Positions 11,855-64,000 of a stretch of DNA of 64,000 nucleotides are shown here, in pieces. The notes below the pieces were generated by a model. The model was not told the DNA's origin, ran no database searches, and saw only the letters and a list, made by a program, of their open reading frames with translations. Positions within the stretch are counted from its first letter, which is position 1; every line of letters starts with the position of its first letter. Origin of the DNA: a candidate division KSB1 bacterium (GTDB lineage: Bacteria > Zhuqueibacterota > Zhuqueibacteria > Residuimicrobiales > Krinioviventaceae); contig JAXHMJ010000005.1 of NCBI GenBank assembly GCA_034521575.1, positions 1,922,001 through 1,986,000 of the forward strand, given 5' to 3'. The position numbers were made by a program, and so were the translations under genes.

Positions 11855-13708
11855 TCACTTGATCAGCGTCAGTTTACCGGTGCGCACCTGTTGATCCGCC
11901 TGCAGCTGATAAAAATAAACACCGGATGAAAAATCAGCCGCATTCAGGGTCACGGCGTGCACACCTGAAGCCATGCGTCCATAGTCCAGATGCCGCACTT
12001 GCTGACCGAGGGTGTTATAGACAGCAAGCTGCACCTGCATCTGTTTAGGCAGATGAAATTCAATACGCGTTGCGTGGTTGAACGGATTCGGGAACGCCGG
12101 CTGCAGCCGCAAGCGATCGATGGTGTTCGGCTCATCCGCGACAAACAGCGGGGCGCCGGTATTCTCAAAGGTCACGCAAAACGTGCCGCCGGAATCCGCC
12201 GGCAGGGTGATGCTGCGGGCATCGCGGTCGTACTGCGGCCAGTCCTGACCCTCCCGTTCCACAGCTGTGATTTTGAGATGCTGATCCGGAATGGCCAGGG
12301 GATACAGCTCGACAATGCGCTGACGCTCCGCCGCCTCAAAATGATAATACAGCTGCACCGGCTGCTGATGCACATATAAATTCGTATACAGATAGGTCAG
12401 ATATCCCAGTTCCACGCCGTGATAGCCGTTTTTCCAGATATCGCCCTTGGTGTCATTGGTCACCTCACCCTCAACACGGGTCTGGGAAAACGACCCGCCG
12501 TACACGTCATCGCGCAGATAATTCATATAAAAGTCAATGGATTCATCCGCCATCTGCAGGCAGAGACGGCGCATGCTGTCGGATTCAGCGATATAATAAT
12601 TGATCAATCCGCACATCACCGCCTGTTCCACCATCCAGTAATCCTTGCCGGCATCCACTTCCCCGGTTTTCCAGTTGTATCCCATCAGGGGACCGCCGTG
12701 CACATGATCGAATCCTCCGTTTTCCCACATGTCCAGAATCAACCGCTGCGCCGCATCCCGATAGGCCTCGCGCGGTTCCACCATATAGGCGCGCGCCAGA
12801 CACCAGGCGGTTTTCAGCACATGTCCCACACTACCGCCGGCGCTCTCGGTGTTCAGGTTCCAGTCCGAGTCATATTCTTCGGCAAATCCGAATTTAACCT
12901 GCGGATTATCCATACTGGCCACCAGGCGTTCGTCCATAATGTCCGCCATGGTCAGCAGCCGGTCGCGAAACATATCCTCTTTGGTCAGCAGATACAGGAT
13001 CAGAGCGTTGGTGGTCACGCCGTCCACGGTGGGCGTAAACCCTTTGCCACGCGCATTCGACCAGTCCAGGTCCGCATCCGCAAAATAACCGGCGTATTCC
13101 GGCCGGTGATCCCACATCTGCGCATCCAGCATATCAAAACCGCGCATCATCCAGTCCCAGTGACTGAGCGAATCCACGGGTGCCTCATAGTCGGGCGGAT
13201 AGGCGCCAGCATGCACACCGCCCGTGGCTTCGACCACGGGCGCGATCCCGACCAGCGCGTAATGCTGAGTAAACGACCATTTCCAGGTGTTGGGATCCCA
13301 CCATTGATTCCAGGCCTGGAGCATTCCCGCAGCATCCGTGGTAAAATACCAGCCGCCGTTGGTTGTATCCCAGCCGTGCGTATATAAAAAGTCCAGGGCG
13401 TGACAGGCATAATCTAAATAATCAGTATTGCCGGTGAGCATAAACGCACGCGAAAAGGCGAATGCCAGCCGCGAGTTACCGGGCAAAGACTTTAGCGAAT
13501 CCGTAATCTGTGTGGCATCGCGGTTCAGATAGGAAAAGAACCCGCCGTTGACGCTGTCCCGGGCATGCGACCAGAATTCGGCTTCACCGAGTACATAATC
13601 GATATTTTTCGACGGGTGCGTCAGATAATCGGACTGCAGAACAGACTGCGCTGCACCGATATTGAAGAAAATGAGAGCCGTAAAAAACAACAGATACAAT
13701 CGTGACAT
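11855..13708 (-). CDS. Secreted AGE-family epimerase/isomerase with T9SS sorting tail
   Basis: The catalytic part (about residues 30-470) is an (alpha/alpha)6 barrel of the N-acylglucosamine 2-epimerase (AGE) family, which includes cellobiose 2-epimerase and mannose isomerase. Segments TQHYALVGIAPVVEAT and GGSVGHVLKTAWCLARAY match family-typical positions. The start at 13708 has GGAG about 8 bases upstream. A signal peptide (LYLLFFTALIFFNIGAA) is followed by the barrel, a linker/beta domain, and a C-terminal tail with AFPNPFNHATRIEFHLP and FSSGVYFYQLQ, a T9SS sorting domain. AGE enzymes are normally cytoplasmic, so an exported, surface-sorted form is unusual. It might act on oligosaccharide reducing ends, or be a barrel with hydrolase or lyase activity. 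The reaction is not established from sequence. Confidence 0.8.
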   Translation of the reverse strand: MSRLYLLFFTALIFFNIGAAQSVLQSDYLTHPSKNIDYVLGEAEFWSHARDSVNGGFFSYLNRDATQITDSLKSLPGNSRLAFAFSRAFMLTGNTDYLDYACHALDFLYTHGWDTTNGGWYFTTDAAGMLQAWNQWWDPNTWKWSFTQHYALVGIAPVVEATGGVHAGAYPPDYEAPVDSLSHWDWMMRGFDMLDAQMWDHRPEYAGYFADADLDWSNARGKGFTPTVDGVTTNALILYLLTKEDMFRDRLLTMADIMDERLVASMDNPQVKFGFAEEYDSDWNLNTESAGGSVGHVLKTAWCLARAYMVEPREAYRDAAQRLILDMWENGGFDHVHGGPLMGYNWKTGEVDAGKDYWMVEQAVMCGLINYYIAESDSMRRLCLQMADESIDFYMNYLRDDVYGGSFSQTRVEGEVTNDTKGDIWKNGYHGVELGYLTYLYTNLYVHQQPVQLYYHFEAAERQRIVELYPLAIPDQHLKITAVEREGQDWPQYDRDARSITLPADSGGTFCVTFENTGAPLFVADEPNTIDRLRLQPAFPNPFNHATRIEFHLPKQMQVQLAVYNTLGQQVRHLDYGRMASGVHAVTLNAADFSSGVYFYQLQADQQVRTGKLTLIK

Positions 13709-13806
13709 TTACATCTCCAGAGTTTGCTTTGCAGCCGCCGACGTCATGATCAGCAGCTGCATGAAATGAGCATCCAGTATCATTCTGTATTAAATTCGCT
13801 GCACTT

Positions 13807-16800
13807 TTATCGCAGCAATATACATTTTTTCGACAGGACCCGGTCACCGGAACGGATCTGGTAAAAATACACACCGCTTCCCACCTGCAGACCGTAATCG
13901 TTGCTGCCGTCCCAGGTGATCTGGTGTTCTCCCGCCTCGATTGTTCGGTTCAGCAACGTCCTGACCTTTTGACCCAGAATATTGTAAATCATCAGCGTGG
14001 CCTGTGCCGTCTCCGGAACCTGAAACCGGATACGGGTCACAGGATTGAACGGATTCGGATAATTTTGATGCAGGCGGAAAGCGGTCGGCTGCGCTTCTTT
14101 TTCATCAACAGCCACGACCACATCTCCGCTGATGCTGCCCACCAGCGTCGTGACGCTGCGGGCCGGCAGCGCCACCGATCCGTTACCGGAGGTGATGCCG
14201 CGGTATTCGAAATTCAGGTGTTCGGCCGTGGTCCAGGTATCATAGGTCTCTGCATGCCGTCCGCCGGTGAGACGAATGCTCAGGGGCTCACTGCCTTTGT
14301 TGATGATCACGATCGTCTGCTGTTTGGTGTCCGGGTGAATGAATCCGGAGGCCAGGATATCATCATGATCATCCACAATGCGCGCCCGGCGGGCGCCCGG
14401 ACGAATGTATTTGTAATAATTTTTTGACGTGTAAAAACTGGCTGTGGGCTCGTTCTTGTCCATGAGCGTGCCTTCAATATTCCAGAGCGTCCACAAACTG
14501 ACATTGCCGTACACCAGGGCCCCGTGAATGGCTCCGGCCAGAGACAGGGCGGAATTCCAATCCTTGTATTCCGGATAGGTTTCGGTCATCCACAATTCTT
14601 TTTCGTACGCACAGGATTGGCTTTGTTGCCACAGATCCTGCCAGCCGGCATAGCTCGGCTGCGCCGCGTTCACGCCGCTCTCACCGTAGCCGTGCGTGGC
14701 AATAATACCCGTAACCCGATCCGCAGTGCTGCTGTTTTTGATCGAGTTGACATATTCCTGCATGGAATAATGCGACTGGGTGAACACCTGCTCCGGCATG
14801 TACAGCTGCGTCGCCAGGCCTTCGCGGGCAAAGCGTGCGCCCACCACCCGCATCAGCCGCGTGTAATGCGTCGGATCAAACACAGCCGAAGCATACGGCT
14901 CGGTGAACGCCGGTTCGTTCTGCGGTCCCACGGCATCTATATGCACACCGGCTTCGTCTCTGAACGACTCGACCGCCGCGACGAGGCTCTCGGCAAATTC
15001 ATCGTAATAATAGGGCTCCAGCACATTGTCGGTGGCTGCGTAATGCGGCGCCGACGCATAGCCATAGGCCACGGACAAATTGCGTTTCATCCACGCCGGC
15101 GGCGACCAGGAGGTCAAAATAAAGGTCTCTACGCCTCTGGCCTGGAGTTCGCGGTAATAATCAAAATCAAAGGCGCTCTTGTCAAAGGCGTTCAGATTCA
15201 GCACATCCGGATCATTGTTGTCATTCACCGGTTCGATCTGATTGCTGATCAAACCGGTACGCACGGCTGATGCGCCCAGATCCTCGGTATACCAGTCAAT
15301 ATAGTTTTGCTGTCCTTCAAACTGAAACGTGCCAAATCCACGAATTTCCTGAAACAGCGTATCGCGAAGAATCTTGATACTGACATGTGACTGGTCGTTG
15401 ATCACGTTCACGTCAACCCGGCGGGTTCGGCTTCGCGCGCCCTCTGCGGAAACTTTTAAAATAATTTGCACATAACCGGTCTGATCCGGAGCCGGCGTAA
15501 CGGTCATCAGAACACTGTCGCCCTGCAACGGACTGAGCTCCGGATGCATGATGATTGATGTATCCGTGCTCATTGCGGTGATCTCCGGTTCAACTCCCTG
15601 CACATTGCTGGTAATGCCGGTCAGCGTCAGCGTGTGTGCACCGCTGTTTTGGTAGAACACCTGATCCGGCACCGGATCCAGTCCGCAGGCGGGCTCGATT
15701 TCGGGAACCAGACTGTCCGGCACCGCGCTGCCGAGGCGCAGATTGGCAATGTATACGGTACCGTTGTCGTGCGGAAACGGCCAGGTGAATTCGCTGGCGT
15801 AATTGAGCAACACTTTTTGAATCCGGCGCACATCGATGGGTTGACCTTCGGCATTGTTCATACCGCCTTTGCCGCGGAAATCCATCAACACGGTTTGCCA
15901 TTGCTGTTCATAGACACGCTTGCGCTGATCGTGCGCCGCATCCACATTGCGGTCCAAATCCGAATCCCAGCCGTCGTCGTAAAAATAACAGTGCGTCAGT
16001 CCCTGACCCAGACCGGCGCCGTCAATATGAAAATCACCGCCCTCAAAATAGATATCATAACTCAGATAGCGGTGTTCATTCACGTTCAGGTCCGGCGTAA
16101 AATAAATCGTGCCCGTCCAGCACGGCTTGTTCTTGAGTTGAATTTTAAGCACATTGTCTTTGCCGTGAAACGAACCGATTTCCGGCACCTGGGTGTTGGG
16201 CACGTCATCCACGCCCCAGTTCTGCAGATCGGTCATGCGCGCGGCATGGCCGGTGAGCGGCAGGGTGCCGACCTGAATCTCAAAAGAGATCACGGTCGAT
16301 GCATCGCCGTTGTTAAACCCGGCGCCCCCGTCATCATTCAAAGTCAGTGTAATTTCAGTGGTTCCGGAACTCGAGGGCGTATACATCAGCTTAGCCTGAT
16401 CTGACCCCTGAGTGTAAACGAGATTCAGAAAAGCCTGTGATATCACAGAGTCGACAGAACTCTGCGCCTGAATATCCAGCGTCTGTGTACCGTCATCACC
16501 GTCGTTGATTCCCGTCAGGATCAGGCTCTGTTGACCATGTTCCAGATACACATACTGATCCGGTACAAAATCGATCTGTGGTTGATGGTTGATCTGCTCC
16601 CAGGAACGCACATCAAACGAGGTTTCACAGGTATTCTGTTGAGCGTATTGATCATTCAGATGCAGAGTCACCGTGATACCGGAATCCGCGGCCAGCGTCT
16701 TGAATCCCAGCATGGCCTGTGTATCGCCCGGGTTATAATTTAGATCAAACAGACTGTCGGGCAGTGCGGCCTGATTGCTGCTGGTCACATGAATCAGTAC

Positions 16801-43359: not shown

Positions 43360-43806
43360 ATGCAGGAACACGGAAAAATAATTAAATGTGACGGAAGAGA
43401 AGCCGTTGTCGAAATCGAGCAGGGTGAACAATGCAAGCATTGTAACGCCTGTCACATGTTCGGAGAATCAAAAATGCGCCTTACGGCCCATAACGGCATT
43501 GATGCACAGCCGGGTGATCACGTCACGGTTGTGGTTGAACCCCGGTTCGTGCTCACGAGTTCTTTTTTGATTTTTATTTTCCCCATCCTTGCCATGATTG
43601 CCGGTTATTTTGTCGGACAAACATTCAGCCAAAGCCCTGATGAAAGGTTCGGTATTTTGGGCGCATTTGCCGGTTTGCTGATGGCGCTCGGATTTAACCG
43701 AATGGTAAACCGAACCGCGTCATCCGGAGAACACCATAACAGTGCAGAAATCATCTCCCGGATTCGGGCGGATCAACAGGACAATACAGGACAATCCATA
43801 TGCTGA
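43360..43806 (+). CDS. RseC/MucC-like SoxR-reducing system protein
   Basis: Small inner-membrane protein of 148 residues. ATG at 43360 is supported by GGAGG 4 bases upstream. The N-terminal domain carries a Cys cluster (GEQCKHCNACHMFGESK), as in the RseC family, followed by two membrane helices (about residues 68-88 and 97-117). RseC proteins are linked to Rnf/Rsx-type reducing systems and sigma-E control. No rnf genes are in view. The stop overlaps the porU-like start by 7 bases, so the two are coupled in translation, which is an unusual pairing. Confidence 0.85.
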   Translation: MQEHGKIIKCDGREAVVEIEQGEQCKHCNACHMFGESKMRLTAHNGIDAQPGDHVTVVVEPRFVLTSSFLIFIFPILAMIAGYFVGQTFSQSPDERFGILGAFAGLLMALGFNRMVNRTASSGEHHNSAEIISRIRADQQDNTGQSIC

Positions 43807-46800
43807 AAAATATATTTTTCATTTGTGCATTCATCGGTTTTACTTGCCTTTACGCTGCTCAGGTCAAGCCGGTCCGTGTGATTTCCAGCTCTCCGACGCA
43901 GCTCTCGCTTGAAATCAATATCCAAAACTGGTCTATGGATTCAATCACAACAGACAATGCCATCTATCAGTCTTTGTCTTTTCCCGGAGCCCAACATGAT
44001 CAGCCTCCGGGCGCACCCGACATCCCGTCGCTGGTGATTCCCGTCGGCGTGCCCGCACAGGGACAGATCAACATCAATATCGCAAACACGCAATCACAAC
44101 GCCTTGATCCCGTTCAATTGGCGCCGGCGCCTCGCTCCGAGGTCCATAACCAGGATGTCAGTTGGTCCTACAATCCCGACCCTGAAATCTATAACCGTTC
44201 CGAATTCGCGCCCAACACCCTGATAAACAGGCCGGACACCCGCAGACTGCGATCCATACGCTATGTCCCCATCAGAGTCTATCTCTTACAGTACAATCCC
44301 AAAACTCAAAATCTCAGGCGCTACAACCGAATCACTCTGACTATCACCTTTCCACAAACCGGGCAATCTACCAAACCCGCCGCTTATGACGAACAACTCG
44401 ACAATCTGCTCATCAATTACGATCAGGCCAGGCTCTGGGCCGCAACCCCGCAACAGAGACTTGAGAAAGCTCAAACCCAACTGTTCCATGGCAGCGACTG
44501 GTACAAAATCACCATCTCCGGCAACGGCGGCGGTGGTATGGAAAATATGTACAAACTCACCGGCAAAATCCTCAAAGACAAGGGCGTGCCCGTTGAATCT
44601 ATTGATCCCGCCACTCTGCAGCTGTTTAACAACGGCGGCCGTATGCTCAACCGGGACATTGTCAACGCCGTCAATGACACCCTGATCGAAAATCCCATCA
44701 AAATTGTCGGCGCTAAAGACGGGCGTCTGGATGACAACGACTATATCCTCTTTTACGGGCGGTCCCTGGAAGGCGTTGCTTACGATTCGGTTCAAAACCG
44801 GCTCTTCCATTACATCCACCGCTTTGATTATGACAATGCCTTTTGGCTTACCTACGGCAAACAAACCGGAAAACGCATGCAGCAAAAATCCTCGCTGCCC
44901 ACACAGGGTCTCGATCCGCAACCCGCCTTTCGCGATCTGGTCTGGATCGAAGAAGAACGGCACAACATTTACAACTCGGGTACCATCTGGCTGGGACGCG
45001 AACTTTCCCGGGAAGTGAGTTCCTGGTCCGTCAACTTTGATCTCCACAATCCGCTCAACAGCGAACCAACCCAGGCCAGGGTCTCCCTCGCTCCAACATC
45101 CGGTCAAAATGAAACCTACCGGTTCTACATGAACGGAAACTCGATCGGCAGCACGCAAACCAGCGGAACCGGGCTCTATCTCAGAGAACTCGAATATGAC
45201 GCACAGGGCACCCTGATGGACGCTGAAAACACCTTTACGCTCAGCTACGTGGCCGCTTCGAACGCCTCATTTGCCTATGTCAACTGGGTCGAACTTGAAT
45301 TCGGCAGGACCTTTACCGCAAAAGACAACAAACTTTTTTTCAGAGGGCCCCTTGGAAACCAAACCGCAGCTTTTGAACTCGAGGGATTTGACAAACAAAA
45401 CATCAGCATCTTTGACGTCACGGACATGAACACGGCGCAGATTATTCCGGAATCTCAAAACGGAAGCATACGGTTTGCAGACAATGCCGGTGAAACCAGG
45501 CTGAAACGCTATCTTGCCCTCTCACCGGACGACTATGCGGAAATCGAACCCGAAAACATTGAATCTGTCGACGTGCAGCACCTGCGCAGCGAACGCAATA
45601 TTGACTTTATCATTATCACATACAAAGACTTTTACCAGCAGGCCCTGGAGCTGGAAAGCTTGCGTGAAAACTGGGACCCGGATGACCGGCTCGAAACCGA
45701 GGTCGTCCAATATGCCTCCATTGTCAATGAATTCGGGTGGGGCATTTCCGATCCCGAAGCTGTGCGGCGTTTTCTTGCCTGGGCACAAATGCACTGGAAC
45801 CAGCCCGGATACGTCCTGCTTTTCGGAGACGGTCACTTTGATTATAAAAACATACTCAGACACGATACCCCCAACCTGATACCGCCGTATGAAATTGACG
45901 GGGTTCTTGAGACCTCCTCTCGTGTATCGGATGACTGGTTCGCTTATACGAGCGGCCAGGAACAGGGCATGCAGATGGCTGTCGGGCGGCTGTGCGTCAC
46001 CTCTGTGGACGAAGCCCAGGCCGTGGTCGACAAGATCGTAAGCTATGAAACCGATCCGCCCTATGAAGAATGGATGAACCGCATCACCTTTCTTGCCGAC
46101 GACGAACTCATTGCCAACGGCAAATCCTCAGGGGTGGATTTTGTGCATATGGGGCAAAGCGAGCAATTGTCACGTTTCCATACCCCCGAGGTATTCAATC
46201 AGAAAAAAGTTTACCTTGTCGATTATCCGGCCGTGCCCTCCGCCAGCGTCAGCGGTGTGACCAAACCCGCCGCCAGTCAGGCGCTTTTGGAACAGATCAA
46301 TCGCGGCACCTTGATCCTCAATTTTATCGGACACGGCAATGACAACCTGTTAACGCATGAGCGCGTGTTCAAACGTTCCGATCACTTTGATCAGGTGCGC
46401 AACGACAATCGACTGGCACTCTGGGTGGCCGCCACCTGCGAGTTTGCCTATTGGGATCAGCCGTTTGAACAGAGCTTTGCCGAGGACCTGGTCAATGCGC
46501 GCGGACGCGGCGCACTGGCTCTGATTGGATCCGCGCGTCTGGCGTTTGCTTCGCCCAACGCGGCATTCAATTACAACTTGTTTGACAATATATTTGTGAA
46601 TTATAAAGAAACCGGGCACACAACCCGACTGGGTGATGCGGTTCTGTTGTCAAAACTCGAAATGTCTACCGGCTTTTATAAAGAAAACACTGAAAAATTT
46701 CTATTGCTGGGCGATCCGACGTTGCGCCTGCAGGCGCCGCAGCACCAGGCAGTCATCGACGACCTCGCGCCCGACAGCATCAAAGCTCTGGGCAAAACAT

Positions 46801-47792
46801 CCCTGTCCGGACACATCGAACAAAACGGCAGTATCTGGCCCGATTTCAGCGGTAACATGCTGGTGCGCGTCATGGACACGCAAATTCAAAAATCCTATCA
46901 CAACCCGGAACTCGATCGCACAACCTCCTATCTCAAACCCGGAAACACCCTGTTCAACGGCCAGGTCACCGTCGAAAACGGCCGGTTTGACGTCAATTTC
47001 ATCGTGCCCAAAGACATCTCGTACGGCGGCGACCAGGCCAAAATCTCTTTGTATTTCTGGAACCATGAAACCTCCGGCGCCGGTATCCGAAACAACCTTG
47101 TGGTCAGTCAGAAGGCAGTTGATCTTGAAGACCAAAAAGGACCTGAAATGCATTTGCACTTTGGCGACCCTAATTTTATCAGCGGCGATCTGGTCTCGCA
47201 GAATCCAACCCTGCATGTCGAACTCGCTGATTCCATCAGCGGCATCAATACCGCCGGATCCATCGGCCATCAGATCACCATGACCCTTAATGACAATTTC
47301 AACCAGTCCACGGATCTCACCGAATACTTTAAATACGATGAGGGCAGCTTTGTCAACGGTTCCCTGGAATACCCCATATTTGAACTCGAACCCGGCGAAC
47401 ACAGCATGACCGTCAAAGCCTGGGACAATTCCAACAACTCGTCTGTGACTACAACCTATTTTACAGTGATTCATGAGAAAAAACTGGAAATCAAAAACGT
47501 TGTCACCTGGCCCAATCCCATGCGCGAATCCTGTACCTTTCGCTTTCAACTCAGCCAGAACGCCGAGGTCTCGATTAAAATCTATACCCTGGCCGGCAGG
47601 ATGGTGCAAGCATTCGACGCGCTTCCCATGCGCGCCGGATACAATGTTTTTCCTATAACATGGGACGGAACCGACCGCGACAACAGCAGACTGGCCAATG
47701 GCGTCTATCTCTATCGGATCACAGCAAAAACAAAACAGCAGGAAAAAAACAAAACCGCTCACAACATCGGAAAGCTGATTATCGCCCGCTGA
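43800..47792 (+). CDS. C25 family peptidase, PorU-type T9SS sortase
   Basis: Gingipain-like cysteine peptidase of 1330 residues. In the type IX pathway PorU cleaves the C-terminal sorting domain of cargo at the outer surface and links it to an anchor. Signal peptide (IFFICAFIGFTCLYA); N-terminal beta domains (to about residue 570) with the GSDWYKITISGNG segment typical of PorU; then the peptidase domain. It has NFIGHGNDNLL (catalytic His near 845) and AATCEFAYWDQP (Cys near 880). Later Ig-like domains and a C-terminal FlgD-like tail (NVVTWPNPMRESCTFRF; WDGTDRDNSRLANGVYLYR) complete it. The tail is also found on characterised PorU. No other T9SS machinery genes are in the window. Confidence 0.93.
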   Translation: MLKNIFFICAFIGFTCLYAAQVKPVRVISSSPTQLSLEINIQNWSMDSITTDNAIYQSLSFPGAQHDQPPGAPDIPSLVIPVGVPAQGQININIANTQSQRLDPVQLAPAPRSEVHNQDVSWSYNPDPEIYNRSEFAPNTLINRPDTRRLRSIRYVPIRVYLLQYNPKTQNLRRYNRITLTITFPQTGQSTKPAAYDEQLDNLLINYDQARLWAATPQQRLEKAQTQLFHGSDWYKITISGNGGGGMENMYKLTGKILKDKGVPVESIDPATLQLFNNGGRMLNRDIVNAVNDTLIENPIKIVGAKDGRLDDNDYILFYGRSLEGVAYDSVQNRLFHYIHRFDYDNAFWLTYGKQTGKRMQQKSSLPTQGLDPQPAFRDLVWIEEERHNIYNSGTIWLGRELSREVSSWSVNFDLHNPLNSEPTQARVSLAPTSGQNETYRFYMNGNSIGSTQTSGTGLYLRELEYDAQGTLMDAENTFTLSYVAASNASFAYVNWVELEFGRTFTAKDNKLFFRGPLGNQTAAFELEGFDKQNISIFDVTDMNTAQIIPESQNGSIRFADNAGETRLKRYLALSPDDYAEIEPENIESVDVQHLRSERNIDFIIITYKDFYQQALELESLRENWDPDDRLETEVVQYASIVNEFGWGISDPEAVRRFLAWAQMHWNQPGYVLLFGDGHFDYKNILRHDTPNLIPPYEIDGVLETSSRVSDDWFAYTSGQEQGMQMAVGRLCVTSVDEAQAVVDKIVSYETDPPYEEWMNRITFLADDELIANGKSSGVDFVHMGQSEQLSRFHTPEVFNQKKVYLVDYPAVPSASVSGVTKPAASQALLEQINRGTLILNFIGHGNDNLLTHERVFKRSDHFDQVRNDNRLALWVAATCEFAYWDQPFEQSFAEDLVNARGRGALALIGSARLAFASPNAAFNYNLFDNIFVNYKETGHTTRLGDAVLLSKLEMSTGFYKENTEKFLLLGDPTLRLQAPQHQAVIDDLAPDSIKALGKTSLSGHIEQNGSIWPDFSGNMLVRVMDTQIQKSYHNPELDRTTSYLKPGNTLFNGQVTVENGRFDVNFIVPKDISYGGDQAKISLYFWNHETSGAGIRNNLVVSQKAVDLEDQKGPEMHLHFGDPNFISGDLVSQNPTLHVELADSISGINTAGSIGHQITMTLNDNFNQSTDLTEYFKYDEGSFVNGSLEYPIFELEPGEHSMTVKAWDNSNNSSVTTTYFTVIHEKKLEIKNVVTWPNPMRESCTFRFQLSQNAEVSIKIYTLAGRMVQAFDALPMRAGYNVFPITWDGTDRDNSRLANGVYLYRITAKTKQQEKNKTAHNIGKLIIAR

Positions 47793-59456: not shown

Positions 59457-62400
59457 TCAACGGAGGCTGAACGTCAAAAGTCGCATATTTTTTTTATCGA
59501 AAACAGTAAGCTGGGAACCTGAGCCATAACCGTCAACTGAAACAGAATAGAACAGATGTTGCCTGTCACGGGAATCAACGACCGTATCCAGATAATGTCC
59601 CTGAGAGTCAATAAGATGCACCCCGTTCAGATCCGCAACATAAACAAGAGTTTTCCGATAACAAAGTTGACCGTTAAATTCCACGCCGGATGGGTCAACG
59701 GAAACAGCAAGCCGCGTGGGAAAGATAAAACGCGCCATACCACCGACACGGTTATTTTGGCCGTACTCGCCGATACTTTGAAGTAAATTATAATGGTCAT
59801 CCGTAATCAAAACCCGATGATTACCGAGATCTGTGATATACACCTTTCCCGAATCGTCGACATAAACGCCTTCGGGACTGTTCAAATAATTTCGCTCTTC
59901 ATCACCCCATTTTATTTCAATATTTCTCCCCTGGGAATACGCTTGCTCAGGTGAACACAGCCTTATTTCATTATTTTTGGAATGAACCACTAAGACTTGA
60001 GAGAGCTCCTTAAGCGCATAATCGCGCAAATAAACCGTCGTATCAATATCATGGTACAAGCGGGTATTATCACCCAGGGCAGCGGCTTTCTTTTTGGTAA
60101 AATAATTATGGTCCTCTCGTGTGACAGAAACCCGGGATTCATCATTTTTTACAAAATCATATATTGGTGACAAAACAGCATACACGGTATCTACACCGGG
60201 GTTCACAAAATGATGTTCCAGAATATAAGGATAGTGATCTTCATCTCTGACAATTATGGTTTTCACCGAATTGATATCAACTTTATCCTTGGAAAACGTC
60301 TTGTTTTCACCACGGGAAAGTATTTCACCGTTTAATTGCACCTGACAATCAACCAGAATATTTCCGTCTGAATCAAGAGCAAACAACTCCAGGCCTGAAA
60401 CAATATCGCCTTGTTGTTCATCGAAAAGCCCCACCCCCTCGAAAACACCTTCCCTGTAAAATTGTGAGCTTTCCAGAATATGAACAGACGGATAAAGTTC
60501 GCGTTTCGGCAAGCCAAAACGTCTCAAACATTGTATGCTCTGGCGAGCCTTTTTGTCCCTGATATAATCAGAATCAGCGAGTTTTTCGTAATTCATAACC
60601 GCATCGTCAGTCATAAGCCAATTGTCCGGGAATTGCACTGTATAATCAATCGACTCGGCGACACCGCTTCCGACTCTGTCCAGTGCGGCCTGAGATTTCC
60701 TGTACCAATACTTTGCTTCAATGGTATTCTGACTGGTTACGTTCATCACGGCTTTATAGCATGCTCTTGCTTTTTTATTGTCTAATCTTTCCCGATAGAT
60801 CTCGCCAAGATAAAACAGTGCTCTTGCACTGTTTTCATCGCGAACCAGAGTTTGCAGAATGCGTTGAGATTCGGCGTAGCGCTCTGCGAAAAACAGAGCC
60901 CGGCTCCGAATATATTCCGCTTCTTTCTGGTAAACTCCGCTTACACCGGTTAGTATATCCGCAGATTCTTGATAAAGGCTTTGCGTTTCTGTCGGATTCG
61001 GAGCAATTTCTGCTTCAAGAGATTTTGTAATTCCTTTGTAAAACTGCGTCTCATTGCTATACGAATCTTCCGAAACTCTGAAAAGCACATTGAGGATATC
61101 CAGGTAATCCTGACGTTGTTCTCCGGTAACTCCCGACGCTGAGGGAAGCAGCTCCTTAACCAGCTGTAAGGCTCTTTGAATATCAGTCCCCAGAACATCC
61201 GTGTAAATTTTGCTGGCTTTTCTGTCAACCGGCCCGCTACCAGCGACAATTCTGAAAATGGAATTTTTGCGTTTCAATTCCTGAACTTTATCATAAATCG
61301 CACGGATTGTAAAGGACGTGGTATCAATATCCCGGGCCAATTGAGCTAACTGTTTAGGATTGTTATGGTTTTTTTCAAAACGGGACAAAAAAATACGGTA
61401 TGTTGCATCTTCATAGAGGAATTTTTGCCGAAGGTTGATTGGTTCAGAGACATGTGTTAGAAAATTTTGAAACGCGGCCTGCTCCTTGCCTTCGTTTAAA
61501 ATATACTTTAAAAATCCTGCCCAATAGTAGGATTCCCGGGTACTATCACTTGAACGGGTGTAATAACCATTCGACCCAATCAGTCTTATCAAATTTTCAA
61601 CAGACTGATAGTCAGCATGGTAGCGGTTTCCCATGCGGAATATTTTTTCCTGTTCATATTGTCGAGACTCGAGATTATCAAGCGTAAGCTCAAACTCCTG
61701 CACATCTTCCGCCTGAATATCAATCAGCAATTTGTTCAATAAAGTCATGGCATGAGAATAATCCTTAATTTCTACATTTTCATCAAACGTACCTGACAAT
61801 TGCTGATATGCTGTTTGATTAAAGTTCAACGTGGCATTGTTTTCATCCTCGATTCCGGAATATAACTTGCCGGTATAAAATGCAATATCCATCAACCGGA
61901 GTTGCGCGGCAAATTCCAAATCCTCCTCGAGATTTTTTTGTAACAGTTCCTGCAGCAATATTCCGGCGTGTTCAAGAGCTTCAAGATTGTCATTAATATT
62001 AAAATCATCCCCGATTGAATTGGCAAACATGTTATATCGGTTGAGTATGGACTTGCGCAGCTCACACTCTGATGCCATATAGAGGGCCTTGGCGGCATCC
62101 TTTCCGGAATCCCGGTAATTCAAAAAATAGTCAATTGCCTGCTCCAGATACTTTACACTGTTTTCCGGATCAAGTTCAGCAAGGCGATAACAGCTCCAGC
62201 CGGCTTTATACAGGGCATTTTCAGCATATTCGGTATAGTTTGTCTGGATATCGGCACGTTTTCTGCATTCAAGAAAATCAGCCAGCGCCCGTTGAAACAA
62301 GGTAATTGATTCATTGGACAGACCCAGGTTATACCGCGCTTCCCCCCTAAAGTAAAGCGCTACACCCTGTTGACTGGGCGGCGCTGCATCTATCCACTGA

Positions 62401-62546
62401 TTGATTTCATCAATAGCAGCGTCGTAATCTCCGCGATTAAACGTCTGCATGGCTCCGGACTGGACAAAATCTTGGGCGTATATATTGGGTAACAAGGCCC
62501 AAACAAAGCAAAAGGATATCAGTATTAAAAGTCTGTTTCTATTCAT
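59457..62546 (-). CDS. Large exported TPR / NHL beta-propeller protein
   Basis: About 1029 residues from ATG at 62546, with GAGG 6 bases upstream. A signal peptide (LLILISFCFVWALLPNIYA) is followed by a long tetratricopeptide array (about 25-200 and 400-640; typical unit DYDAAIDEINQWIDAAPPSQ). A middle beta domain (about 680-830) precedes NHL-type propeller repeats near the end (YLNSPEGVYVDDSGKVYITD; GNHRVLITDDHYNLLQSIG; FIFPTRLAVSVDPSGVEFNG). It would be periplasmic and serve as a scaffold. It begins after the TonB-like gene and the ExbD gene on the same strand, with a 21-base gap, so it is likely part of that energy-transducing complex. No family with this full architecture is known to me. 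Confidence 0.8.
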   Translation of the reverse strand: MNRNRLLILISFCFVWALLPNIYAQDFVQSGAMQTFNRGDYDAAIDEINQWIDAAPPSQQGVALYFRGEARYNLGLSNESITLFQRALADFLECRKRADIQTNYTEYAENALYKAGWSCYRLAELDPENSVKYLEQAIDYFLNYRDSGKDAAKALYMASECELRKSILNRYNMFANSIGDDFNINDNLEALEHAGILLQELLQKNLEEDLEFAAQLRLMDIAFYTGKLYSGIEDENNATLNFNQTAYQQLSGTFDENVEIKDYSHAMTLLNKLLIDIQAEDVQEFELTLDNLESRQYEQEKIFRMGNRYHADYQSVENLIRLIGSNGYYTRSSDSTRESYYWAGFLKYILNEGKEQAAFQNFLTHVSEPINLRQKFLYEDATYRIFLSRFEKNHNNPKQLAQLARDIDTTSFTIRAIYDKVQELKRKNSIFRIVAGSGPVDRKASKIYTDVLGTDIQRALQLVKELLPSASGVTGEQRQDYLDILNVLFRVSEDSYSNETQFYKGITKSLEAEIAPNPTETQSLYQESADILTGVSGVYQKEAEYIRSRALFFAERYAESQRILQTLVRDENSARALFYLGEIYRERLDNKKARACYKAVMNVTSQNTIEAKYWYRKSQAALDRVGSGVAESIDYTVQFPDNWLMTDDAVMNYEKLADSDYIRDKKARQSIQCLRRFGLPKRELYPSVHILESSQFYREGVFEGVGLFDEQQGDIVSGLELFALDSDGNILVDCQVQLNGEILSRGENKTFSKDKVDINSVKTIIVRDEDHYPYILEHHFVNPGVDTVYAVLSPIYDFVKNDESRVSVTREDHNYFTKKKAAALGDNTRLYHDIDTTVYLRDYALKELSQVLVVHSKNNEIRLCSPEQAYSQGRNIEIKWGDEERNYLNSPEGVYVDDSGKVYITDLGNHRVLITDDHYNLLQSIGEYGQNNRVGGMARFIFPTRLAVSVDPSGVEFNGQLCYRKTLVYVADLNGVHLIDSQGHYLDTVVDSRDRQHLFYSVSVDGYGSGSQLTVFDKKNMRLLTFSLR

Positions 62547-62567
62547 AATTTCCTCTGTATCCAACCA

Positions 62568-63193
62568 TTAATCATTAATATATCCGATGTGGATATTATC
62601 ATTGATAATATAATATAATAATCCATTATCAATCTGGATATTTACCGCAAAACCGGAGCTGCGCTCCAGACCCCGCAAATCGATGGTCAATTCAGCACCG
62701 ATAGAACCCACATTAAAGAAAAATTCGATATTTCCGGTCTTGTATCGGGTATATACCCAGGTTTTCATAACCTTTTCAAGATAATCACCGGCCGCAGGAT
62801 ACCTGCATCGCGCAAGCTCATAATGTTCAAATTGCCAGACTCGTCGATATATCCCTTTACGCGAATCTGAGCTGTCGCATCAATTTCCCGCAATGAACTC
62901 CAATCAACAGGAGTGATACCGGCGGCGCGGGTATTTATTTCGAACTGTTTGGTCCGGCGTGGTGGTCCGGATATTACAAGGCCCTGGGTACCGGGCCGTT
63001 CTGGGATATCCAGGTCAGGCATATTTTGCTCACCTCTTAAAAACGCGATCTCTTGCCTGGCAGGACAAAATAACGAACAGATCAAAACAATGACTATCAC
63101 AGCAACAATGGTCCAGAAAACAATTTTTTTCACGAGATTATACAAATAGGTTCTTTTGCTCCTGCTGTCTCTGTATTCTATATTGGCAATCAT
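62568..63193 (-). CDS. TonB-like protein, one frameshift
   Basis: Energy-transducing protein anchored in the inner membrane. An N-terminal helix (KIVFWTIVAVIVIVLICSLF) is followed by a short proline-containing linker and a C-terminal TonB-type domain. The two halves of that domain are in different frames: RVKGYIDESGNLNIMSLRDAG to about 62803, then YPAAGDYLEKVMKTWVYTRY and GNIEFFFNVGSIGAELTIDL. One added G near 62801-62803 restores it. Total about 209 residues. It lies 55 bases after the exbD-like gene and 21 bases before the TPR/propeller gene. The short linker suggests a narrow periplasm-spanning distance or a partner protein. Confidence 0.8.
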
Positions 63194-63248
63194 AACCGTC
63201 TACCGCAGATTCATGAAATAATAACAGGATAATCAGATTTTACTTTAA

Positions 63249-63863
63249 TTAACGCCCTGTTTCACGGAAAGTTATAACCAGATTATTTTGGAAAATCCCG
63301 TCCTGATTTTGGGTCTGAACCGTTTGAATATCGGCTTTGCGCACATCACTAAAAGAGCCTTCTACACATCCGTATTCGATCTCGTTCACTTTGGAAATCT
63401 TTTGAATAATATCAATAACATGATAGTAGGGCATCTGTTCCGGACAACGGATCAAAAAAAAGTACTCTACGGATGTGCTCTGTGCACGTTTGATAATATC
63501 TTCAACATTCTGCATCAACTCGGATTTATCAAAAAAACGAGACTGGAAATAATCGATGATCTTTGTTTGCACTTGTTCGCTGGGCAGGTACCCGTAATCA
63601 TTTATAATTTGATCCACGCGATCAGCCGCAGTAGGGTCAATAAAATAGTATCCTTGTAATGTTTCCTGTCCATAGAGCTGAATCAACACTTGAGCCCGTC
63701 CCATCTGATTCTGTGGAAGCGGCACGGATACATTGGCTTCGCCTTTTTCCATTTTTACAACAATATTGGTAACGGCAAAAAAGATTACCAGGATAAATGC
63801 CATATCAATGAGTGAAGTCCACTGTGGTTTGCGTCTTTTTCTTTCAATAGATCTAAATGCCAA
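63249..63863 (-). CDS. ExbD/TolR family proton-channel protein
   Basis: Inner-membrane component of an ExbB/ExbD- or TolQ/TolR-type proton-driven motor. TTG at 63863 is the start, with AAGGAG 8 bases upstream. The single membrane helix contains the essential Asp (SLIDMAFILVIFFAVTNI). The periplasmic domain is about 150 residues, longer than classic ExbD (~140 total), and includes an unusual insert (YLPSEQVQTKIIDYFQSRFF) before the typical VEYFFLIRCPEQMPYYHVID segment. The TonB-like gene follows, so the motor probably energises that protein. The channel partner is presumably the gene cut by the right edge. Confidence 0.88.
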   Translation of the reverse strand: MAFRSIERKRRKPQWTSLIDMAFILVIFFAVTNIVVKMEKGEANVSVPLPQNQMGRAQVLIQLYGQETLQGYYFIDPTAADRVDQIINDYGYLPSEQVQTKIIDYFQSRFFDKSELMQNVEDIIKRAQSTSVEYFFLIRCPEQMPYYHVIDIIQKISKVNEIEYGCVEGSFSDVRKADIQTVQTQNQDGIFQNNLVITFRETGR

Positions 63864-63880
63864 AAATTTTCTCCTTCAGC

Positions 63881-64000
63881 TTAGGATGTCAAAACCCGGA
63901 AACTAAGCATGTGAACGGGATTTACAGAAGGATCATCAGTAATTTCATTGCATAAATTGAAAAAATAATTAATTAATCCAAATTCGGTATTTCTTACTGC
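63881..64000 (-). CDS. C-terminal fragment of an upstream gene, cut by the window edge
   Basis: The last 39 codons of a gene whose stop is at 63881-63883, with no in-frame stop to the edge. The visible residues (EFGLINYFFNLCNEITDDPS ... HMLSFRVLTS) are not diagnostic. Only 17 bases separate it from the exbD-like start, so it is co-transcribed. Its position fits an ExbB/TolQ/MotA-type protein or a fusion, but the sequence here does not prove this. Confidence 0.45.
   Translation of the reverse strand, partial: AVRNTEFGLINYFFNLCNEITDDPSVNPVHMLSFRVLTS

Follow-up and report, generated by a model that had tools for sequence, protein, structure and literature searches.

A conserved ExbB/ExbD and TonB-like operon encoding a PorV-family barrel and T9SS-tailed proteins in KSB1 and Zixibacteria-phylum genomes

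Gene content of the locus

The window, a 64-kb stretch of DNA from a candidate division KSB1 bacterium (G000:C5:1922001-1986000; the source genome comprises five contigs), ends within a cluster of tightly spaced genes that all lie on the minus strand (Table 1). A sequence-only reading had described here an ExbD, a very short TonB-like protein, an exported TPR/NHL protein and a gene cut by the window edge, and all but the second of these descriptions hold up. The cut gene is a second ExbD (ExbD1), and, followed to the right, the contig carries the cluster on upstream past the window with ExbB, a PorV-family barrel bearing TPRs (PorV-TPR) and Ig/Fn3 proteins. The window thus displayed only part of the cluster.

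Table 1. Genes of the motor operon; plain ranges are window positions, ranges prefixed L009 are positions in locus L009.
Feature	Position	Strand	Evidence or remark
Predicted TPR/NHL periplasmic scaffold	59457..62564	-	Pfam NHL over cut-off, TPR, AF2, Foldseek
TonB-like transducer gene, frameshift-split	62568..63193	-	reading frame of relatives, TonB-CTD resemblance
TonB-like ORF, 142 aa	62765-63193	-	
TonB-like ORF, 66 aa	62568-62768	-	
ExbD2, 204 aa	63249..63863	-	PF02472, 32.6 bits (cut-off 25.4)
ExbD1, edge-cut part	63881..64000	-	whole gene L009:7881-8504, 207 aa; PF02472, 29.1 bits
ExbB, 495 aa	L009:8526-10013		outside window
PorV-TPR, 628 aa	L009:10084-11970		outside window
Ig-like proteins, 410 and 890 aa	L009:12191-13423, 13443-16115		outside window
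Fn3 protein with T9SS type A sorting tail, 610 aa	L009:16137-17999		outside window

ExbB matches PF01618 (71 bits), with the proton-channel residues G414, L415, G417, T418, G421, T455 and T456 invariant (27/27) and E451 present in 25/27 members. The transmembrane aspartate is kept in both ExbDs, as D21 of ExbD1 in 27/27 members and as D20 of ExbD2 in 27 of 28. Judged by sequence, the operon ExbB and ExbDs belong to the ExbBD/TolQR proton-channel family, whose members form a 5:2 motor with proton-driven rotation (PMC9389320), and by analogy with that family a 5:2 stoichiometry may be expected of the operon motor. The unusual periplasmic insert proposed for ExbD is likewise supported: the operon ExbDs measure 174-249 aa, mostly ~200, whereas the remaining ExbDs of the genome span 132-171 aa, and the periplasmic part of ExbD2 is enlarged.

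The scaffold, 1029 aa from an ATG or 1035 aa from a TTG, carries an NHL repeat (32.3 bits, over the cut-off), TPR matches and a signal peptide recognised by inspection. Its architecture runs from the signal peptide through an alpha-solenoid (~37-710) and a beta-sandwich (~720-811) to an NHL beta-propeller (~846-1034), in line with an AF2 prediction of good confidence (pLDDT 83.6) that shows solenoid, sandwich and C-terminal propeller. Foldseek searches with this model rank NHL propellers first and also return TPR/solenoid proteins, among them the flagellar periplasmic scaffold of Campylobacter.

The very short TonB-like protein proves to be an artefact. Its two ORFs sit in different frames and jointly match what in 27 relatives is a single frame, encoding one ~200-aa chain (about 192-228 aa). 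The single frameshift that splits the gene is probably an assembly indel, because further genes of the same genome are broken as well: SprA lies in two frames, the two Ig genes are out of frame with each other and many receptor frames are short. A programmed frameshift was rejected, given the single frame in the relatives and the other split genes of the assembly. Apparent frameshifts in a surface protein (window 55676-56779/56623-58152), in the Ig pair (L009 12191-16115) and in SprA (G000:C5:126661-131855) suggest indel errors in the source assembly.

Even when intact, the TonB-like protein is short for a TonB. It is modelled as a transmembrane helix, a disordered stretch at residues 41-74 (a linker of ~34 residues) and a beta-beta-alpha-beta C-terminal domain. 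When a profile of the 27 proteins was compared with the PDB, the seven best matches were all TonB C-terminal domains, with weak E values of 0.015-0.23, and in a fold search the E. coli TonB C-terminal domain was the best match to the model, not significant taken alone. Family matches among the 27 members are similarly weak (TIGR01352 in 2, PF03544 in 1, myxo_SS_tail in 5). The predicted resemblance to the TonB C-terminal domain is thus weak but consistent.

A histidine in the transmembrane core (SHLS motif) occurs in 0 of the 27 members; the source genome's receptor-linked TonB (L002) has this histidine, and the TonB of a further locus (L011) lacks it too. Pfam matching found no FHA domain in the operon transducer. 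An apparent ExbD-TonB fusion in one locus (L163) was rejected as an out-of-frame overlap, a separate ExbD being present. In some loci of the Zixibacteria phylum (L049, L050, L186), a cysteine follows the hydrophobic stretch of the TonB-like protein, which might be a lipoprotein there.

The sequence-only reading had also raised a link to the T9SS, to which the presence of PorV and CTD proteins inside the operon lends support. The PorV-TPR of the source genome matches NF033709 (PorV/PorQ) at 96.7 bits against a cut-off of 90, and 23 of 24 barrel members match the PorV family at E<=0.001, some of them under the curated cut-off. The first operon gene bears a T9SS type A tail in 15 of 16 loci, and 9/10 of the small proteins encoded ahead of PorV end in a PorZ-like tail. 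Several KSB1 families have a ~360-aa T9SS-tailed protein before PorV, and in several PorV-TPR and ExbB are separated by a ~370-aa protein that, by inspection, is Fn3-like at its N-terminus and barrel-like at its C-terminus. PorV-like genes and genes for T9SS-tailed proteins are both common across these genomes, so their adjacency alone is modest evidence of function. The T9SS sortase PorU is also encoded in the window, at about 43800-47792 on the plus strand (NF033707, 852.9 bits), at a distance of about 12 kb from the motor genes.

Conservation across two phyla

Loss of the gene order among relatives had been named beforehand as evidence against the sequence-only reading; a survey finds the order kept in 26 KSB1 genomes and 7 of the Zixibacteria phylum. 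Read with profiles built from the operon proteins and judged on loci whose contigs extend far enough, the core order PorV-TPR / ExbB / ExbD1 / ExbD2 / TonB-like / TPR-NHL is present in essentially all contigs reaching that far. In four loci the ExbDs were at first missed by an overlap filter and are present on re-inspection. The order is shared by KSB1 and Zixibacteria at 22-32% identity, and conservation across two phyla places the arrangement far beyond chance.

TPR/NHL homologues, whether full-length or at contig edges, occur in 26/82 KSB1 genomes (28 if NHL-only matches in two further genomes, G032 and G046, are counted) and in 7/132 genomes of the Zixibacteria-containing phylum, in one of which (locus L187) the TPR/NHL gene stands alone. 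In KSB1 these homologues are patchy within the source genome's class and nearly universal across the other families (f15-f23). In a quick tree of the TPR/NHL proteins the Zixibacteria sequences form one clade and the KSB1 sequences group largely by family, with two copies in each of G063 and G066. In both genomes the whole operon is duplicated (L149/L152 and L157/L166, respectively), and the L166 copy is very divergent.

Searches of the open-access literature for KSB1 T9SS, Zixibacteria T9SS or ExbD with PorV and TPR found no papers. The operon is real, conserved and, within that literature, apparently undescribed; it is a variant of the ExbBD/TonB motor class, which is itself known.

A candidate motor for surface proteins

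The sequence-only reading had proposed a proton-driven motor acting on a large periplasmic scaffold rather than on nutrient uptake. We consider that the operon may move or assemble PorV-docked, T9SS-secreted surface proteins, and give this reading a probability of about 45%. An inner-membrane motor of the 5:2 type, formed by ExbB (with a periplasmic Fn3-like domain) and two different ExbDs, would use proton flow to drive the short TonB-like transducer. Because its linker is short, the transducer would be likelier to meet a periplasmic partner such as TPR/NHL than to reach the outer membrane directly, and, since its length would span the periplasm only with difficulty, TPR/NHL is its probable partner. 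The TPR/NHL protein may in turn pass force on to the PorV-family outer-membrane barrel by way of the barrel's periplasmic TPR tail, and the barrel would hold the Ig/Fn3 proteins, whose genes lie upstream and which the T9SS would secrete. The output of these presumed contacts would be moving or assembling surface proteins, as in gliding, adhesion or surface-fibre dynamics, rather than nutrient uptake. A bolder version, which we hold more tentatively, is a new trans-envelope machine of uncultured phyla in which ExbB/ExbD1/ExbD2, by way of a TonB-like arm with TPR/NHL as the relay, moves PorV-docked T9SS surface proteins. It would then join GldLM and AglRQS as a third motor for gliding or surface motion, or be one of two alternatives that take the place of GldLM in T9SS-bearing phyla.

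Such a surface-protein motor would be analogous to the Glt/Agl or Gld gliding machines. The Glt/Agl gliding core of Myxococcus combines TolQ, two TolR, a TonB-like protein and TPR proteins (PMC3169522), and the operon resembles AglRQS-Glt in its TolQ-type protein with two TolR/ExbD-type partners, its TonB-like transducer and its large exported TPR protein, as well as in the clustering of the genes and the conservation of the core across lineages (PMC3169522). It differs in that the transducer has no FHA domain, the TPR protein bears a beta-sandwich and an NHL propeller, and a PorV barrel and T9SS-tailed proteins are included; furthermore, a Glt-like cluster exists separately. This second cluster of the source genome (L010, G000:C1:390000-406000) resembles the Glt/Agl core and encodes a TonB of 457 aa with an FHA domain (assigned by inspection of its N-terminus), two ExbDs, TolQ, a 134-aa protein, TPR proteins of 947 and 447 aa and a 308-aa protein. 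A recently reported and uncharacterised motor operon, in which vWA-domain force transducers accompany TPR, TolQ and two TolR genes (PMC12204202), likewise shares the TPR protein and the pair of TolR-like proteins, whereas the transducer here is TonB-CTD-like rather than vWA and has no SHLS/His motif.

Alternative functions

SprA occurs in 82/82 KSB1 genomes (80 over the cut-off) and 129/132 genomes of the Zixibacteria phylum, and PorU is over the cut-off in 73/82 KSB1 genomes. GldLM/PorLM is the Bacteroidota motor for the T9SS and for gliding. GldM was detected in 0/82 KSB1 genomes, compared with 4/4 Bacteroidota controls, leaving a T9SS that lacks this known motor component; the operon brings PorV and T9SS cargo together with an ion-driven motor in a specific, testable gene set. 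One alternative, which we regard as unlikely, is that the operon energises T9SS protein export itself in place of the missing GldLM/PorLM. PorV and CTD genes within the operon fit this role, and like GldLM/PorLM it ties a proton-motor class to SprA, PorV and CTD proteins, although its channel is of the PF01618 ExbB/TolQ type and no homology of GldL or GldM to the operon ExbB/ExbD profiles was detected. The Glt-like TPR protein of the 947-aa type is found in about 69 of the 82 KSB1 genomes, and 12 of the ~13 without it carry the window operon, so that every KSB1 genome has one or the other except G069, which is 76% complete; this complementarity rests mostly on one clade and is a lead rather than a statistic. 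Against an export role, the operon occurs in only 26/82 and 7/132 genomes where SprA is near-universal, and most T9SS genomes therefore do without it. A general T9SS motor is weakened on these grounds, the Zixibacteria-phylum counts in particular indicating that the T9SS in general does not need the operon.

Slightly less probable still is a TonB2-like energiser, in which TonB, ExbBD and a TPR accessory would open a transporter in the outer membrane; the PorV barrel, of the FadL superfamily, might itself be that transporter. The Vibrio tonB2 operon (ttpB-ttpC-exbB-exbD-tonB-ttpD) places its TPR protein last, has no receptor gene and serves siderophore uptake (PMC6957404), the same two traits of a TPR gene directly after tonB and no adjacent receptor gene being seen here. 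Because a TPR protein, TtpD2, takes part in siderophore uptake by Vibrio TonB2 (PMC6957404), a TPR protein beside TonB is on its own no proof against uptake, and to that extent the claim that the cluster does not serve nutrient uptake is softened. The source genome has about 34 TonB receptors, but, as the sequence-only reading had noted, none lies in the cluster; the nearest is about 130 kb or more away, and a separate receptor-ExbB-ExbD-TonB locus exists elsewhere in the genome. Taken together, receptor distance and this dedicated locus argue, on genomic evidence, against an uptake role, as do the T9SS-tailed surface proteins, the two divergent ExbDs and the short linker. The Vibrio system, with its known iron uptake, also has a separate TtpC, no PorV or T9SS proteins and a TPR protein of 425 aa (PMC6957404), compared with ~1070 aa and a propeller in the operon.

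A Tol-Pal-like envelope-integrity system, with the TPR/NHL protein standing in for both the TolB propeller and the TPR of CpoB, is improbable: a TPR and propeller protein does adjoin TolQ/R/A-like genes, the best NCBIfam matches are TolQ for ExbB and a YbgF/CpoB-type TPR for the TPR part of the scaffold, and the partners recall E. coli Tol-Pal in concept, but Pfam finds no Pal/OmpA or TolB-N domain among the operon proteins, the transducer has a TonB-like C-terminal domain, PorV and T9SS cargo are present and the patchy distribution is unlike that of a housekeeping system.

Elsewhere in the source genome, an ExbB-ExbD-ExbD-TonB set has two genes of the PorV family nearby, together with a T9SS-tail-like protein (L011 9044-12511).
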